Below are positions 40,402 through 57,790 of a stretch of DNA of 64,000 nt, piece by piece. The stretch's first letter is position 1. Each line of letters opens with the position of its first letter. The notes under the pieces were generated by a model. The model was not told where the DNA came from and searched no databases. It saw only the letters and a list, made by a program, of their open reading frames with translations. The translations under genes and the position numbers were made by a program. Origin of the DNA: Gammaproteobacteria bacterium (GTDB lineage Bacteria > Pseudomonadota > Gammaproteobacteria > Eutrophobiales > Eutrophobiaceae); NCBI GenBank assembly GCA_016193395.1, contig JACPSH010000016.1:1-64000 (forward strand), given 5' to 3'.

Positions 40402-41460
40402 ATGGATATCCTGCCTTATCTGAAATTGATGGTGGAAAAGAGCGCCTCCGATCTGTTCCTCACGGTCGGTGCGCCAGTGAAGATCAAGATCGAGGGCAAG
40501 TCCCAGTCCGTGGGCAAGACGCTGTTGACCGGTGATCTGTGCAAGGCGGCGGCCTACGCCATCATGAGCGAGCACCAGATCAAGAAGTTCGAAGACACGA
40601 TGGAGTGCGATTTCGCGATCCCGCTGCCTGACGGCGGCGCCCGCTTCCGCGTCAACGTATTCCGCCAGCGCGGCGAGGTTGGCATCGTCATGCGCCGCAT
40701 CCCGCAGAATATCCCGACCGTGGATCAGCTTGGCCTGCCCGAGGTATTGAAGGACCTGATCATGCAAAAGCGCGGGCTGCTGCTGATGGTCGGCGCCACC
40801 GGTTCAGGCAAGTCGACCACGCTGGCCGCGATGCTCGATCACCGCAACGAGAATATGTTCGGCCATATCCTGACGATCGAGGATCCTGTCGAATTCAGCC
40901 ATCCGAACAAGAAATCCATTATCAATCAGCGCGAAGTAGGCGTGGATACGCTGTCCTACAAGAACGCGCTGAAGGCGTCCCTGCGCGAAGCGCCGGACGT
41001 GATCCTGATTGGCGAGATCCGCGATCGGGAAACGATGGAAGCAGCGCTGGAACTGTGCAACACGGGTCACCTGGCCATCTCCACGCTGCACGCGAACAAC
41101 GCAAACCAGGCCATGGAGCGCGTCATCAACCTGTTTCCCCAGGAGATGCAGAAACAGCTGTTCATGGATCTGTCGCTGAACCTCCGCTCGGTCATTTCGC
41201 AGCGGCTTGTCCTGGGTGTCGACGGCAAACGCTGTGCGGCGATTGAGATCTTGATCAATACACCGCACATTGCCGAGTTGATCCTCAAGGGCGAGATCCA
41301 CGAGATCAAGGAAGCCATGGCGACGAGCGGCGCGACCGGCATGCAGACCTTCGACACGGCGCTCTACAACCTCTACAAGGAAGGCCGCGTCAGCCTGGAG
41401 GAGGCGCTCAACAACGCCGACTCCAAGACCAACCTCGAAGCCAAGATCAATTTCGGTTGA
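40402..41460 (+). CDS. Second PilU-like retraction ATPase
   Basis: This 352-residue protein is a third complete PilT-family ATPase in the same operon: Walker A GATGSGKSTTLAAM, Asp box EDPVEFSHPNKKSIINQREV, Walker B DVILIGEIRDRETMEAAL and CNTGHLAISTLHANNANQA. It resembles PilU more than PilT in the last part (VISQRLVLGVDGKRCAAIEIL, INTPHIAELILKGE), but lacks the acidic tail. It may specialise in a different pilus or modulate PilT/PilU. All catalytic motifs look intact. Confidence 0.88.
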   Translation: MDILPYLKLMVEKSASDLFLTVGAPVKIKIEGKSQSVGKTLLTGDLCKAAAYAIMSEHQIKKFEDTMECDFAIPLPDGGARFRVNVFRQRGEVGIVMRRIPQNIPTVDQLGLPEVLKDLIMQKRGLLLMVGATGSGKSTTLAAMLDHRNENMFGHILTIEDPVEFSHPNKKSIINQREVGVDTLSYKNALKASLREAPDVILIGEIRDRETMEAALELCNTGHLAISTLHANNANQAMERVINLFPQEMQKQLFMDLSLNLRSVISQRLVLGVDGKRCAAIEILINTPHIAELILKGEIHEIKEAMATSGATGMQTFDTALYNLYKEGRVSLEEALNNADSKTNLEAKINFG

Positions 41461-41581
41461 TTCACGCGGCGGTCGTTTTCGAACGCCGCGCTGGCTGATA
41501 CCAGCCATCCGTACCTGTTCCGGCTCGCGCGCTCCCGGCGTCGTCAGCGGTTTCCAGCCCGTCGCCGCAATCGCCGGCCGC

Positions 41582-41597
41582 TGGCACGCTTTCTGCA
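41582..41597 (+). promoter_or_regulatory. Candidate sigma-54 (-24/-12) promoter of the PqqU-like gene
   Basis: TGGCACGCTTTCTGCA keeps the invariant GG-N10-GC spacing and most of the TGGCAC-N5-TTGC consensus (one T to C change). It lies 50 bases before the receptor ATG. A site of the same form lies upstream of the facing pqqA-like gene. No sigma-54 activator gene is in the window. Confidence 0.5.
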
Positions 41598-41647
41598 ATC
41601 ACACTCTGCGCTGCCTGGGGGTGGCTATGGCGTAGAGGAGAGACACG

Positions 41648-43714
41648 ATGTCGCGATCTGCAACCCTGTGGATGACCGGAACGTTGCTCGCCGGTTTGTG
41701 GTCAACCTCAGCGGACGCCAAGGAAACGCTGAAGGAAGTGGTCGTGACGGCCACGCGTATCCAACAGCGGCTGAGCGACGTGCCGGGCGGCGTAACGATC
41801 ATAGAACAGAGGGACCTTCAGCTCGGCCGGCAGCAACTGGGCCTGGATGAAGCCCTCGCGCGGGTACCGGGGGTGTTCTTCCAGGACCGCTACAATTTCG
41901 CGCAGGATCTGCGCATCGCCGTGCGTGGTTTCGGCGCGCGCTCCAATTTCGGGATCCGCGGGGTCAAGGTATTCGTCGATGATATTCCGTCCACGCTCCC
42001 CGACGGGCAGAGCGGCGTGGACGATATCGATCTCGGATCGCTCTCCCGGGCCGAAGTGATCCGCGGCCCATCCTCGTCCATTTATGGCAGTTCCTCCGGT
42101 GGCGTCCTCAACCTGTATACGGAGGACGGGCCGGATACGCCTTTTGCGGAGGCCGGGATCACGATTGGGGCATTCGACCAGCAGAAGTACCAGTTGAAGG
42201 CGGGGGGGCAGCACGGGGATCTCAATTACCTGCTCAACGGTTCTTATCTGAACTACGACGGCTACCGCGATCACTCCGAAGTCAATCACGCCCTCTTCAA
42301 CAGCAAGTTTCGCTATGACGTCGACGCGGCGTCGGACCTGACCCTGGTATTCAACCTGGTCGATTCGCCCGTCGCGGATGATCCCGGGGCGCTGACGGCA
42401 GCGGATGTCGAGGCCGATCCGCGCCAGGCACAGCCCCGCAACTTGAGCTCGGACGCGGGCGAATCGCTGCAGCAGCAGAAATTCGGCTGGCTATACCGGC
42501 GCGAGTTCGGTTCCGTCCATGAACTGAGATTGCGCAACTACTATACGTGGCGCGATTTCCGCAATCTCCTGCCCCTGGGCACGCATATTCCGTTTTCCGC
42601 GATCGACGGCGTCGTGGAGTTCGACCGGTTCTTCTATGGCGGAGGAGTGCAGTACACGTACAGCGGTAATTTTTTCGGGCGCGGAAACCGGGTTACGGCC
42701 GGATTTGATGTCGACGTGCAGGAGGATGATCGGCAGCGATATGTCAACAGCTCGGGCGCCCAGGGCCCCCTGACTTTTGATCAGCTGGAAGAGGCAAATG
42801 CCTGGGGATTCTATGTCCGCGATGCGCTCGCGCTTTCGGATTCGCTCGAACTGACTGTCGGTGGCCGCTTCGATGTCATCGATCTGTCCGTGGATGATCG
42901 GTTTCCGGCCAATGGCGATCAATCGAGTTCGCTCGATTTCGACGAATTCAGCCCCTCTGTCGGGCTGACCTGGAACGCCTGGAAGGAGATTTACCTGTTT
43001 GCCGGCTATGCCACGGCCTTCGAAACGCCCACCTTCACCGAACTGGGTACCCCGGCGCAGGAGTTGAACGCCAATCTCGGTGGTTTCGCCAACGTGCAGG
43101 CACAGACCGCGACGGGATTCGAGTCGGGTGCGCGTGGCATGCTTTGGGACGGGGCGAACTTTGAAATCGCGGCATTCCACATGGACGTCGAGGACGAAAT
43201 CACCAACGTGGTCAGCGTCGCCAACCGCGCGTTCTTCGAGAACGCCGACACGGATCGGACGGGGGTGGAAGCCTCGTTCGTGGCCGAGTGGTACGACGGC
43301 CTGCGCCTGACTGCCGCGTACACCTATTCGGATTTCACTTTTGAATCCTTCCCGTCCAACCCCGCCGCGGTTGGAAGTCACCTTCCCGGTATCCCTGAAC
43401 AGCAGTTTTACGCGGAACTCGCCTATTTCCACGAATCCGGCTTCTACGTGGTCTGGGACGTGCTCGTGGTCGATGAACTGTTCACCAATAATCTCAACAC
43501 GGAGGTCTCGCCGGGCTACACGGTGTCCAACCTGCGGCTGGGCGGGGAATTCAACTTCGGATCCTGGCGACTGTCGCCGTACGTCGGCCTGAACAATCTG
43601 TTTGACGAGTCCTACAGCGGCAACGTGCGCCTGAATGCCTTTGGCGGCCGTACCTTCGAGCCGGCGCCGGGGTTCAATCCGTATGGTGGCGTGAAGGTAG
43701 GCTTTGACTTCTGA
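41648..43714 (+). CDS. TonB-dependent outer-membrane receptor, PqqU/YncD-like
   Basis: This 688-residue protein has a signal peptide (about 1-24), a TonB box (KEVVVTATR) and a plug domain. The 22-strand barrel ends in GVKVGFDF with the terminal Phe. GAGGAGA lies 6 bases before the ATG. As far as I can recall the family, the plug resembles E. coli YncD/PqqU, the TonB-dependent receptor reported for pyrroloquinoline quinone: NFAQDLRIAVRGFGARSNF, GIRGVKVFVDDIPSTLPDGQ and IRGPSSSIYGSSSGGVLN. GYRDHSEV and VADDPGALT also match. It faces the pqqA-like gene, which supports PQQ as substrate. Iron siderophores cannot be excluded from sequence alone. Confidence 0.8.
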   Translation: MSRSATLWMTGTLLAGLWSTSADAKETLKEVVVTATRIQQRLSDVPGGVTIIEQRDLQLGRQQLGLDEALARVPGVFFQDRYNFAQDLRIAVRGFGARSNFGIRGVKVFVDDIPSTLPDGQSGVDDIDLGSLSRAEVIRGPSSSIYGSSSGGVLNLYTEDGPDTPFAEAGITIGAFDQQKYQLKAGGQHGDLNYLLNGSYLNYDGYRDHSEVNHALFNSKFRYDVDAASDLTLVFNLVDSPVADDPGALTAADVEADPRQAQPRNLSSDAGESLQQQKFGWLYRREFGSVHELRLRNYYTWRDFRNLLPLGTHIPFSAIDGVVEFDRFFYGGGVQYTYSGNFFGRGNRVTAGFDVDVQEDDRQRYVNSSGAQGPLTFDQLEEANAWGFYVRDALALSDSLELTVGGRFDVIDLSVDDRFPANGDQSSSLDFDEFSPSVGLTWNAWKEIYLFAGYATAFETPTFTELGTPAQELNANLGGFANVQAQTATGFESGARGMLWDGANFEIAAFHMDVEDEITNVVSVANRAFFENADTDRTGVEASFVAEWYDGLRLTAAYTYSDFTFESFPSNPAAVGSHLPGIPEQQFYAELAYFHESGFYVVWDVLVVDELFTNNLNTEVSPGYTVSNLRLGGEFNFGSWRLSPYVGLNNLFDESYSGNVRLNAFGGRTFEPAPGFNPYGGVKVGFDF

Positions 43715-43764
43715 ACTTCAGTTTCGCGGCGGGTGAAACGGGCAAATTTGCGGGCGTGGAAAAG

Positions 43765-43788
43765 AAAAGGGGCCTTGCGGCCCCTTTT
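43765..43788. terminator. Bidirectional terminator between receptor and pqqA-like gene
   Basis: AAAAGGGGCC pairs perfectly with GGCCCCTTTT around TTGC. It lies 51 bases after the receptor stop and 23 bases after the pqqA-like stop, so it can serve both convergent transcripts. Confidence 0.92.
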
Positions 43789-43810
43789 CCCGTAATCCCG
43801 TTTCGGGTGA

Positions 43811-43885
43811 TTACTTGTTGTTGATGTACATCGTCACTTCGAAACCGAAGCGGATGTCATCGTACGAGGGTGTCTGCCAGTTCAT
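43811..43885 (-). CDS. pqqA: PqqA-like PQQ precursor peptide
   Basis: This 24-codon gene is preceded by GGAGAG 8 bases before the ATG. The peptide begins MNWQTPSYDDIRFG and continues FEVTMYINNK. PqqA peptides are 22-29 residues, with a fixed Glu-x3-Tyr that is cross-linked to build PQQ. Here these are Glu16 and Tyr20, as in known PqqA, and FEVTMY is the most conserved family segment. PqqE, with PqqD as chaperone, joins the two side chains. No pqqB, C, D or E gene is in the window, so the gene is an orphan here. An in-frame ATG at 43948 would extend it to 45 residues but lies inside the candidate promoter and lacks a good ribosome site. Confidence 0.85.
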   Translation of the reverse strand: MNWQTPSYDDIRFGFEVTMYINNK

Positions 43886-43936
43886 TTCAGTCTCTCCGTT
43901 AACAGAGTCAGGGTTTGTTTCCTGTGCCTTGATAGC

Positions 43937-43952
43937 AGCAGATTTCATGCCA
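43937..43952 (-). promoter_or_regulatory. Candidate sigma-54 (-24/-12) promoter of the pqqA-like gene
   Basis: Read on the minus strand: TGGCATGAAATCTGCT, with the GG-N10-GC spacing and the same T to C deviation at -12 as the receptor site. It lies 51 bases before the short-form ATG. The AT-rich stretch beyond it (43975-44010) could hold activator or IHF sites. The rest of the gap to 44107 shows nothing else. Confidence 0.45.
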
Positions 43953-44107
43953 GTTTGCCCGCTTACGGCATGAACTATAAGTATTTATAAATCAGATAGT
44001 TATAAATCATGCATTCAAGCAAGGCCCGGCATGGGGTGCAAACGTCCGAATGACTGGTTACAGGCAACCACGGGATTGGTTGCCTAAGACCGGCATCCGG
44101 CGCGCGG

Positions 44108-45016
44108 TCAGCCCGGAAATACCGCGGTGGCGTCGAAGACCGGGCCGTCCACGCAGACGCGCAGCATCGCCGGGCCTTCGGGGGTGGTGACGCGGATGGC
44201 GCACCCCGCACACCCGCCCACGGCGCATGCCATGTATTCCTCGACGCAAACCTGGCAGGGCAGTTGATAATCACTGGCCAGCTTCGCGACGGCTCGCAGC
44301 ATGGGCATCGGTCCGCAACCGAAGATCTCGATCTCGCGGCGTTCGTGCTCATCCAGGGTGCCGATCCAGTGCCGGGCCAAATCCGTAACGAAGCCCTCGA
44401 AGCATCCGGCCCGGTGCTGCCCGCTGGTGAGCCGGCTCGGAATCTTCCAATCCTCGAAAAGCGGCATGGCGGCAATGGTGCCCTCCGGCATGCCGGGCAC
44501 GAGTATCTGCGACGGCCGCGGCCGGAACGGGAACGGCACCTCGGAACCCATCAGGACGAGCGGGGCGGCGGGAAGGCGGCACGAGCGCATGTGCTCGGCG
44601 AGGAACACGATGGGGGGGATCCCCACGCCACCGCCGATCAGCAGCGGACGCCGCCGGTAACCCAGCAGCTTGAACGGAACGCCGATCGGGCCGATCAGGC
44701 TGATCTCCTCGCCCTGGCGCCGGCCCGCCAGTAGACGGCTGCCCAGGCCGTGGGCCTTGAACAGGATTTCAATCCAGCCCGCCGCGGGATCGGCGCGCAT
44801 GATCGACATTGGACGGCGCATCGGCAACGTTCGATCGCAACGCACATGCACGAACGAACCAGGCCGTGCGGCGGCGGCAATAGACCGCGACTGGAGCCGC
44901 AATACATGCTGTTCGGCCTCGTAAGGCGTGTGCGCCAGCACGGCCGCGGTTTCGACATGGAGCGTGCCGCGCGTTTCCGGATGGATAACGGCGGCAGTGG
45001 CGGCGGGCGGCGTCAT
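44108..45016 (-). CDS. PyrK-like FAD/2Fe-2S electron-transfer subunit
   Basis: This 302-residue protein has the ferredoxin-reductase fold of PyrK: FAD-binding RRPMSIMRA, NAD-binding PLLIGGGVGIPPIVFLAEHM and GCGPMPMLRAV. A 2Fe-2S cluster site closes it (CVEEYMACAVGGCAGCAIRV followed by CVDGP). PyrK passes electrons from dihydroorotate dehydrogenase B to NAD. Gammaproteobacteria normally use quinone-dependent PyrD without PyrK, so its presence beside pyrC' is notable; no class 1B pyrD is in the window. It overlaps the pyrC' stop by 4 bases. Confidence 0.85.
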   Translation of the reverse strand: MTPPAATAAVIHPETRGTLHVETAAVLAHTPYEAEQHVLRLQSRSIAAAARPGSFVHVRCDRTLPMRRPMSIMRADPAAGWIEILFKAHGLGSRLLAGRRQGEEISLIGPIGVPFKLLGYRRRPLLIGGGVGIPPIVFLAEHMRSCRLPAAPLVLMGSEVPFPFRPRPSQILVPGMPEGTIAAMPLFEDWKIPSRLTSGQHRAGCFEGFVTDLARHWIGTLDEHERREIEIFGCGPMPMLRAVAKLASDYQLPCQVCVEEYMACAVGGCAGCAIRVTTPEGPAMLRVCVDGPVFDATAVFPG

Positions 45017-56047: not shown

Positions 56048-57790
56048 ATGACGCCCGGCCTTCCACGTTCCTCCGATCTCAGCCTGTACCGGCGGCTGCT
56101 CGCTTACGTCGCGCCCTACTGGCGCACCTTCCTCGTGTCGCTGGCCGGCATGCTGGTGCTCGCCGCGACGGCCCCGGCGGTCGCCGCGTTGCTGAAGCCC
56201 ATCCTGGATGACGCGCTGATCGGGCGCGACCCGGAGATGATCGTGCGCATCCCCGTATACCTCATCATGCTGTTCACCCTCCGCGCCGCGGCGTCCTACA
56301 TCAGCATGCTGTCGCTGGCCTGGGTGTCCAGCCGGGTGATCATGGATCTGCGCGCCGCGATGTTCGGGAAACTGCTGACCTTCCCGAGCGAATATCACGA
56401 CCGGCACAGCGCGGGCGGCGTCATCTCGAGATTCACCTACGACGTCACGCAGATCAAACAGGCCGCGACCGAGGCCATCACGGTGGTGTTCAGGGACTCC
56501 CTGTACGTCGCCGGTCTCGTGGGCTGGATGTTCTACGTCAACTGGCAGATGACCCTGGTCGCGGCGATCAGCGCGCCGTTCATCGTGGCGACGGTGAACG
56601 CGCTCCGCGCGCGGTTGCGGGCGATGAACCGGCGCGTGCAGGACTCGATGGCCGACATTCACCAGAGCCTGGGGGAGGCCATCGACGGCCATCGCATTGT
56701 CAAACTGTACGGGGGGCAGGAACAGGAGGCCGCCCGGTTCGGCGAGATCATCAACGCGAACCGCCGCTTCAGCATGAAGGCGGCCGCCGCCGCCGTCGCC
56801 GGCAGCCCGGCGGTCGAGATCATCACCGCGTTGGCGCTGGCCGCGATCGTACTCATCGCCGGGCGCCAGGCGATGGCCGGGACGCTGAGCGTCGGATCGT
56901 TCGTATCCTTCTTCGGCGCCACCGCGATGGTGCTGCCGCCGCTGAAGCGGCTGGTGCGCATCAACGAGCACATCCAGCGCGGGCTGGCGGCCTGCGAGAG
57001 CGTGTTCGGGCTGCTCGACGAACCTTCCGAGGGGGACACAGGCGTCATCGAACTGGGAGCGGTGGGCGGCGAGATCGCGATCCGCGGGCTGGATTTCCAG
57101 TACGATGCCGGCGCCCGGTCCGCGCTGCATGGCATCGATCTGCAAATCCGGCCCGGTGAAACCGTGGCGCTGGTCGGCGCCTCCGGCAGCGGCAAGACGA
57201 CGCTGGCACATCTCCTCGCGCGTTTTTACGTGGCGGGCCCGGGCCGGATCTTCATCGACGGACGCGACATCCACGAGATCACGCTTGCCAGCCTGCGTTC
57301 GGCGATCGGGCTGGTCAGCCAGGACATCGTCCTGTTCAACGATTCAGTGCGCAACAACATCGCCTACGGCGCGCGCCGGTCGGCCTCTGATGCGGAGGTC
57401 GTCGCCGCGGCGGAAGCGGCGCATGCCATGGAGTTCATCCGAACCCTGCCGGAGGGGCTGAAAACGCGGATCGGCGACCGCGGCGCGCTGCTGTCCGGCG
57501 GACAGCGCCAACGCATCGCGCTGGCACGCGCGCTGCTCAAGGATGCCCCGATCCTGATCCTCGACGAAGCGACTTCAGCCCTGGATCTCGAGTCCGAGCG
57601 GCAGATCCAGCTTGCGCTGGAGAAAATCCGCGGCCGCCGCACCTGCATTGTCATCGCGCACCGCTCCTCCACCATCGCCGCGGCGGATCGCGTCATCGTT
57701 CTCGATCGCGGGGTGATCGCGCAGATTGGCACGGCCGCGGAACTGTTGAAACGCGACGGACCCTTTGCGCGCCTGCACCGAAGCGCATGA
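56048..57790 (+). CDS. msbA: Lipid A export ABC transporter MsbA
   Basis: This 580-residue protein has six membrane helices in the first 310 residues and an ATPase domain: Walker A GASGSGKTTLAHLLARF, Q-loop GLVSQDIVLF, signature LLSGGQRQRIALARALL, Walker B ILILDEATSAL and the switch IAHRSSTI. MsbA flips lipid A-core across the inner membrane. Start PGLPRSSDLSLYRRLLAYV fits the family. Confidence 0.93.
   Translation: MTPGLPRSSDLSLYRRLLAYVAPYWRTFLVSLAGMLVLAATAPAVAALLKPILDDALIGRDPEMIVRIPVYLIMLFTLRAAASYISMLSLAWVSSRVIMDLRAAMFGKLLTFPSEYHDRHSAGGVISRFTYDVTQIKQAATEAITVVFRDSLYVAGLVGWMFYVNWQMTLVAAISAPFIVATVNALRARLRAMNRRVQDSMADIHQSLGEAIDGHRIVKLYGGQEQEAARFGEIINANRRFSMKAAAAAVAGSPAVEIITALALAAIVLIAGRQAMAGTLSVGSFVSFFGATAMVLPPLKRLVRINEHIQRGLAACESVFGLLDEPSEGDTGVIELGAVGGEIAIRGLDFQYDAGARSALHGIDLQIRPGETVALVGASGSGKTTLAHLLARFYVAGPGRIFIDGRDIHEITLASLRSAIGLVSQDIVLFNDSVRNNIAYGARRSASDAEVVAAAEAAHAMEFIRTLPEGLKTRIGDRGALLSGGQRQRIALARALLKDAPILILDEATSALDLESERQIQLALEKIRGRRTCIVIAHRSSTIAAADRVIVLDRGVIAQIGTAAELLKRDGPFARLHRSA

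Follow-up and report, generated by a model that had tools for sequence, protein, structure and literature searches.

The 64-kb stretch of DNA analysed here (the window) carries a gene for the PQQ precursor peptide, pqqA, that converges with a gene for a 688-residue TonB-dependent receptor of the PqqU/YncD type, and upstream of both genes we find a sigma-54 promoter and one common palindrome (Table 1). This promoter signature, common to pqqA and pqqU, is what is new here; a limited full-text literature search, its results judged mostly by title and abstract and subscription journals being mostly outside its reach, turned up no sigma-54 or NtrC-type control of either gene. As the same box and the same enhancer palindrome stand at both genes, joint activation rather than switching is predicted, and we consider it probable that the locus belongs to a regulon for PQQ supply in which pqqA and pqqU are activated together by a two-component system encoded on another contig of the same genome (C57).

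Table 1. Features of the pqqA–pqqU slot and its borders, in window coordinates
Feature	Position	Strand	Evidence
pilU-like gene, one slot border	40402..41460	+	conserved order
Enhancer-like palindrome TGGCTGATACCAGCCA upstream of pqqU	41492..41507	.	1 of only 2 TGGYTN6ARCCA matches in 64 kb
Predicted sigma-54 -24/-12 promoter of pqqU, TGGCACGCTTTCTGCA	41582..41597	+	sequence match; module 2nd in window
PqqU/YncD-type TonB-dependent receptor	41648..43714	+	NF041535 400 bits; 9c4o 338 bits; Foldseek TM 0.88/0.91; residues Q86 F101 R302 R362 R527
Perfect 11-bp hairpin, probable shared terminator	43764..43789	.	sequence and fold
pqqA, PQQ precursor peptide, 24 codons	43811..43885	-	TIGR02107 44.9 bits, cut-off 20
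Predicted sigma-54 promoter of pqqA, TGGCATGAAATCTGCT	43937..43952	-	sequence match; box conserved in slot pqqA upstreams
Enhancer-like palindrome TGGTTACAGGCAACCA (+ strand), TGGTTGCCTGTAACCA on - strand, upstream of pqqA	44055..44070	.	pattern match
pyrK-like gene (name by inference), other slot border	44108..45016	-	conserved order in relatives

Judged by its sequence, the 24-codon ORF is a true pqqA: it is preceded by GGAGAG and encodes the peptide MNWQTPSYDDIRFGFEVTMYINNK, which exceeds the curated cut-offs of both HMMs (TIGR02107, 44.9 versus 20 bits; PF08042, 39.2 versus 21.1 bits) and carries Glu and Tyr at x3 spacing within FEVTMY (E16 and Y20 of 24), as a sequence-only reading of this locus had correctly recognized. 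That reading had also found no pqqBCDE nearby; none lies in the window, and PqqB, PqqC, PqqD and PqqE are all encoded, with scores above their cut-offs, on contig C57 (approximately 15.1–16.0 and 22.3–24.5 kb), among ORFs that we read as C1 and molybdenum-cofactor genes. The absence of pqqC and pqqE, which that reading would have counted against the idea in related genomes, is thus not what the genome (2.7 Mb in 60 contigs, 96.65% complete) holds, and it encodes in addition a second PqqA (C57:39812) and two PQQ-dependent (quinoprotein) alcohol dehydrogenases that exceed their cut-off. Because pqqBCDE lie on another contig, the PqqA made at this locus would serve the pathway in trans.

On both sequence and structural-model comparisons the receptor, with Plug and barrel domains, falls with PqqU rather than among the siderophore receptors. 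Its top NCBIfam model is that for PqqU (NF041535, 400 bits, versus 170 bits for the siderophore model), its best relative of solved structure is Escherichia coli PqqU (338 bits, the next non-PqqU receptor scoring 52 bits), and Foldseek searches with an AlphaFold2 model (pLDDT 83) rank PqqU with bound PQQ (9c4o; TM 0.88/0.91, E 7e-57) ahead of 6v81 (4e-53) and FecA (6e-36). These scores, structure relatives and fold ranking led us to reject a siderophore-receptor reading, and the resemblance to the E. coli PQQ receptor that had been noticed from the letters alone held up in the comparison. The equivalog cut-off of NF041535 (1200 bits) is reached neither by the window receptor nor in any of the 53 family genomes, versus one of 14 control genomes; we read it as set for close E. 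coli orthologs, and so call the receptor PqqU-type rather than a certified equivalog. The published PqqU signature, an aromatic residue at Y99 with R304 and R365 in E. coli numbering (Munder et al., 2025, PMC12124388), is matched at all three positions by F101, R302 and R362, and E. coli Q84 and R536 are retained as Q86 and R527, the latter in a low-confidence loop of the model. PQQ is the predicted cargo of the receptor.

The promoter boxes of pqqU and pqqA both fit the sigma-54 pattern TGGCAY-N5-YTGCW exactly, with GG, GC and their fixed spacing, and the -12 end lies 50–51 nt from the ATG in both. Three exact boxes are observed in 64 kb versus 0.26 expected, and two palindromes of the form TGGYT-N6-ARCCA versus 0.17 expected, one lying 90 bp upstream of the pqqU box and the other 118 bp upstream of the pqqA box. 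The region singled out by the sequence-only reading, 41582 to 43952, ends exactly at the outer ends of the two boxes, which its text did not mention. A scan for sigma-70 promoters found none. The third exact sigma-54 match, at 57522, falls inside an ABC-transporter-like ORF and was taken as chance.

The palindrome pattern was written after inspection of the pqqA alignment and then widened to fit pqqU, whose palindrome in the window departs from the pqqA consensus at one base in each arm. Since the pattern was fitted post hoc, an independent test was made with a weight matrix trained only on the pqqA promoters of other genomes: across the window it ranks pqqA (38.7) and pqqU (34.2) first and second, while the third-best site scores 18.5 and 25 Markov sequences reach no more than 18.6. 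Chance promoter matches were rejected on the strength of the shuffles and of this model trained elsewhere. We regard the conserved palindrome as a putative upstream activator site to which an enhancer-binding protein would bind. The module (at most one mismatch in all) was not found in the stretches examined around pqqB, pqqCDE and the two dehydrogenase genes of the window genome.

The signature extends well beyond the window. TGGCA and TGC of the sigma-54 box are conserved in 17 other aligned upstream regions of pqqA at this position, that of Methylohalomonas lacus included, and among 46 distinct pqqA upstreams the palindrome (at most two mismatches) is present in 45 and the box (at most one) in 35. 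The 1.12 Mb of DNA analysed from the family and from M. lacus, drawn mostly from around pqqA, pqqU and pyrK and hence not a genome-wide sample, contain 48 exact palindromes, of which 42 belong to pqqA and 5 to pqqU; 1.87 Mb of other DNA holds three. The lone family palindrome away from both genes is at position 1179 of locus L210 (genome G036). A palindrome scoring above 8, a threshold chosen after inspection, precedes pqqU in 13 of 17 family genomes of PQQ makers, the window genome among them, but in only 1 of 9 non-makers and ahead of only 4 of 67 unrelated receptors. The corresponding Fisher p values, 0.003 and 7e-9, overstate independence, as maker and non-maker genomes share ancestry. The four remaining maker copies fall below this threshold, in maker relatives the palindrome of pqqU is often accompanied by only a weak sigma-54 box, and the pqqU of M. 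lacus, the only other one adjacent to pqqA, lacks a clear module. M. lacus has a tandem pqqA pair (G191:C12; L313, 620–1345 and 1426–1650), at which a palindrome/sigma-54-like module also faces away, toward a 152-aa membrane-like ORF.

Both genes sit in a slot between pilU and pyrK, inside a conserved block (proC-yggS-pilT-pilU / pyrK-pyrC-pyrB-pyrR-ruvX-yqgE-tonB-gshB, names from ORF reading). Among 48 same-family relatives with pyrK, the slot holds pqqA alone in at least 16, a PqqU-like gene alone in at least six and both in none, counts that are lower bounds as some contigs end inside the slot. The pairing noticed in the sequence-only reading is therefore real at the window but not general, for we find it together in the slot only here and in M. 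lacus, a member of another order. Five of the six pqqU-only slots belong to one genus (G007–G011; loci L193, L204, L177, L176 and L201). Searches of this genus yielded no pqqA and no pqqC, although four of its five genomes retain a PQQ-dehydrogenase match that is strong but under the curated cut-off. The slot receptors of this genus have L at the R304 position and that of M. lacus has T, so that they fail the strict PqqU signature. More generally, a full-length PqqU-like receptor is present in all nine family genomes that have neither pqqA nor pqqC. In a wider survey of 80 further genomes, those with the best pyrK matches among 369 sampled across the class, the slot held pqqA or pqqU only in M. 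lacus, which argues that it is not a general hotspot; a search across the order to which M. lacus belongs gave no genome but its own. In a tree of 107 receptors, those encoded in the slot fall in at least three separate branches, the others occupying genus-specific places; such scatter implies that the gene moves, and that it either entered the slot repeatedly or was lost from it on many occasions. One PqqU-like gene (L094, 10001–12037) is inserted elsewhere in the housekeeping block, where it separates yqgE from tonB.

Between the convergent stop codons lies the hairpin GAAAAGGGGCC-TTGC-GGCCCCTTTTC, with A and T runs inside its stem. The suggestion from the letters alone that the two genes share a bidirectional terminator is a reasonable reading of this perfect hairpin, but the terminator scan did not flag it, owing to the position of the T-run inside the stem, and the fold of the whole intergenic strand is unremarkable (z -1.2).

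A candidate regulator stands beside the second pqqA. This copy is divergent from a gene for a HAMP histidine kinase, which is followed by a gene for an NtrC-type regulator with receiver, sigma-54 activator and Fis HTH domains (L010, 8632–11528, on contig C57 of the window genome, G000). Such an arrangement, with a conserved histidine kinase gene pointing away from pqqA, is frequent where pqqA lies outside the slot: a kinase 50–61% identical is encoded divergently next to pqqA at 17 more loci in genomes of the family. These loci end inside the kinase, so that the regulator gene is seen only in the window genome. No named equivalog fits the kinase or the regulator, the scores being far below the cut-offs of all. 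The regulator is likely the protein that binds the palindrome and activates the two promoters.

In the scheme that we propose, the kinase and regulator of C57 probably act through binding to the TGGYT-N6-ARCCA palindromes, and the regulator would set sigma-54 RNA polymerase to work at both genes, pqqA and pqqU. A need for PQQ on the part of the quinoprotein alcohol dehydrogenases would raise PqqA, which PqqE, PqqD, PqqB and PqqC encoded elsewhere would convert to PQQ in trans, and the outer-membrane importer, raised at the same time, would recapture leaked or foreign PQQ. In its fullest form, the proposal is of a dedicated NtrC-type system with sigma-54 that controls precursor supply and import as one regulon in a mostly uncultivated gammaproteobacterial order (and pqqA alone in Methylohalomonas), senses PQQ demand or level, and perhaps includes a receptor for metal-bound PQQ; we put the chances of this at about even. 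PQQ that leaks from cells is a shared good, and what is at stake is a producer's balance between making and recapture. Across the family, precursor and importer genes bear a common promoter signature that points to a candidate regulator, and it offers a reason for the persistence of extra pqqA copies at a distance from the rest of the pathway genes.

The pairing could instead be an accident of gene order, a mobile pqqU having landed where pqqA had long stood beside pyrK, with the two genes independent. Such an accident fits the rarity of adjacency, seen in M. lacus and in just one of the 53 family genomes, many of which are fragmented, and it also fits the variation of pqqU location by genus. 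Munder and colleagues found that synteny between pqqU and the pqq operon is generally missing, with four Burkholderiales exceptions, and took this lack of synteny to mean that the two are in most cases under separate control (PMC12124388). Independence is nevertheless unlikely in our view, as a common module gives the two top-ranked sites of the window and accompanies pqqU at other places in maker genomes, and PqqU-like genes of at least three separate tree branches occur in one slot. The sequence-only reading had proposed a switch between making and scavenging, with one gene on while the other is off. The genes are indeed convergent, and between genomes the slot pqqA goes with makers and the slot pqqU mostly with non-makers, so that something of this idea survives as a pattern between genomes only; within the genome, the same promoter type with the enhancer motif 90 and 118 bp upstream is an activation layout at both genes, and such a switch appears very improbable.

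Joint activation of the two genes would be compatible with a different cargo, such as PQQ complexed with a metal (Ca or a lanthanide) or a similar chelate. E. coli K274 is replaced by E272 in the window receptor, a glutamate invariant in all 26 aligned family receptors and one for which possible metal co-transport has been suggested (Munder et al., 2025, PMC12124388), and of the 11 E. coli contact residues compared only four are identical, with F in place of Y99 in addition. The signature trio is conserved, however, as is R536, and the promoter ties the gene to pqqA; we hold import of something other than free PQQ to be a rather doubtful alternative to the PQQ uptake of the preferred scheme.

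The closest characterized relative of the receptor is E. coli PqqU (YncD; the high-affinity PQQ importer of PDB 9c4o and 6v81; PMC12124388), to which it is a full-length match with 35% identity over the aligned region, the best fold match, Y99/R304/R365 as F/R/R, and R536 and Q84 kept. Unlike E. coli PqqU, it has K274 replaced by E and scores below the narrow NCBI equivalog cut-off, its gene adjoins pqqA and has a predicted sigma-54 promoter, and its host also encodes PQQ synthesis. The C57 system resembles AtoSC/NtrBC-type systems acting via sigma-54 in its kinase (HAMP/HisKA/HATPase), in its regulator (receiver, AAA+ sigma-54 and Fis HTH domains) and in having a palindrome some 100 bp ahead of the -24 box, but differs from the named equivalogs in scoring far below their cut-offs and in its probable targets, pqqA and pqqU. 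Methylotrophs, too, are known to have additional pqqA genes at unlinked sites: passages of PMC11317620 describe orphan or multiple copies that lie apart from the remaining pqq genes, as here, in Methylorubrum extorquens and Methylovorus, and those passages mention neither a sigma-54/NtrC-type promoter nor a link to a PQQ importer. Linkage of a PQQ importer to PQQ biosynthesis is shared with the four Burkholderiales (PMC12124388), in which pqqU is syntenic with the operon and in the same orientation, whereas in the window it adjoins pqqA only, and the two genes are convergent, each with its own predicted promoter of the same type.
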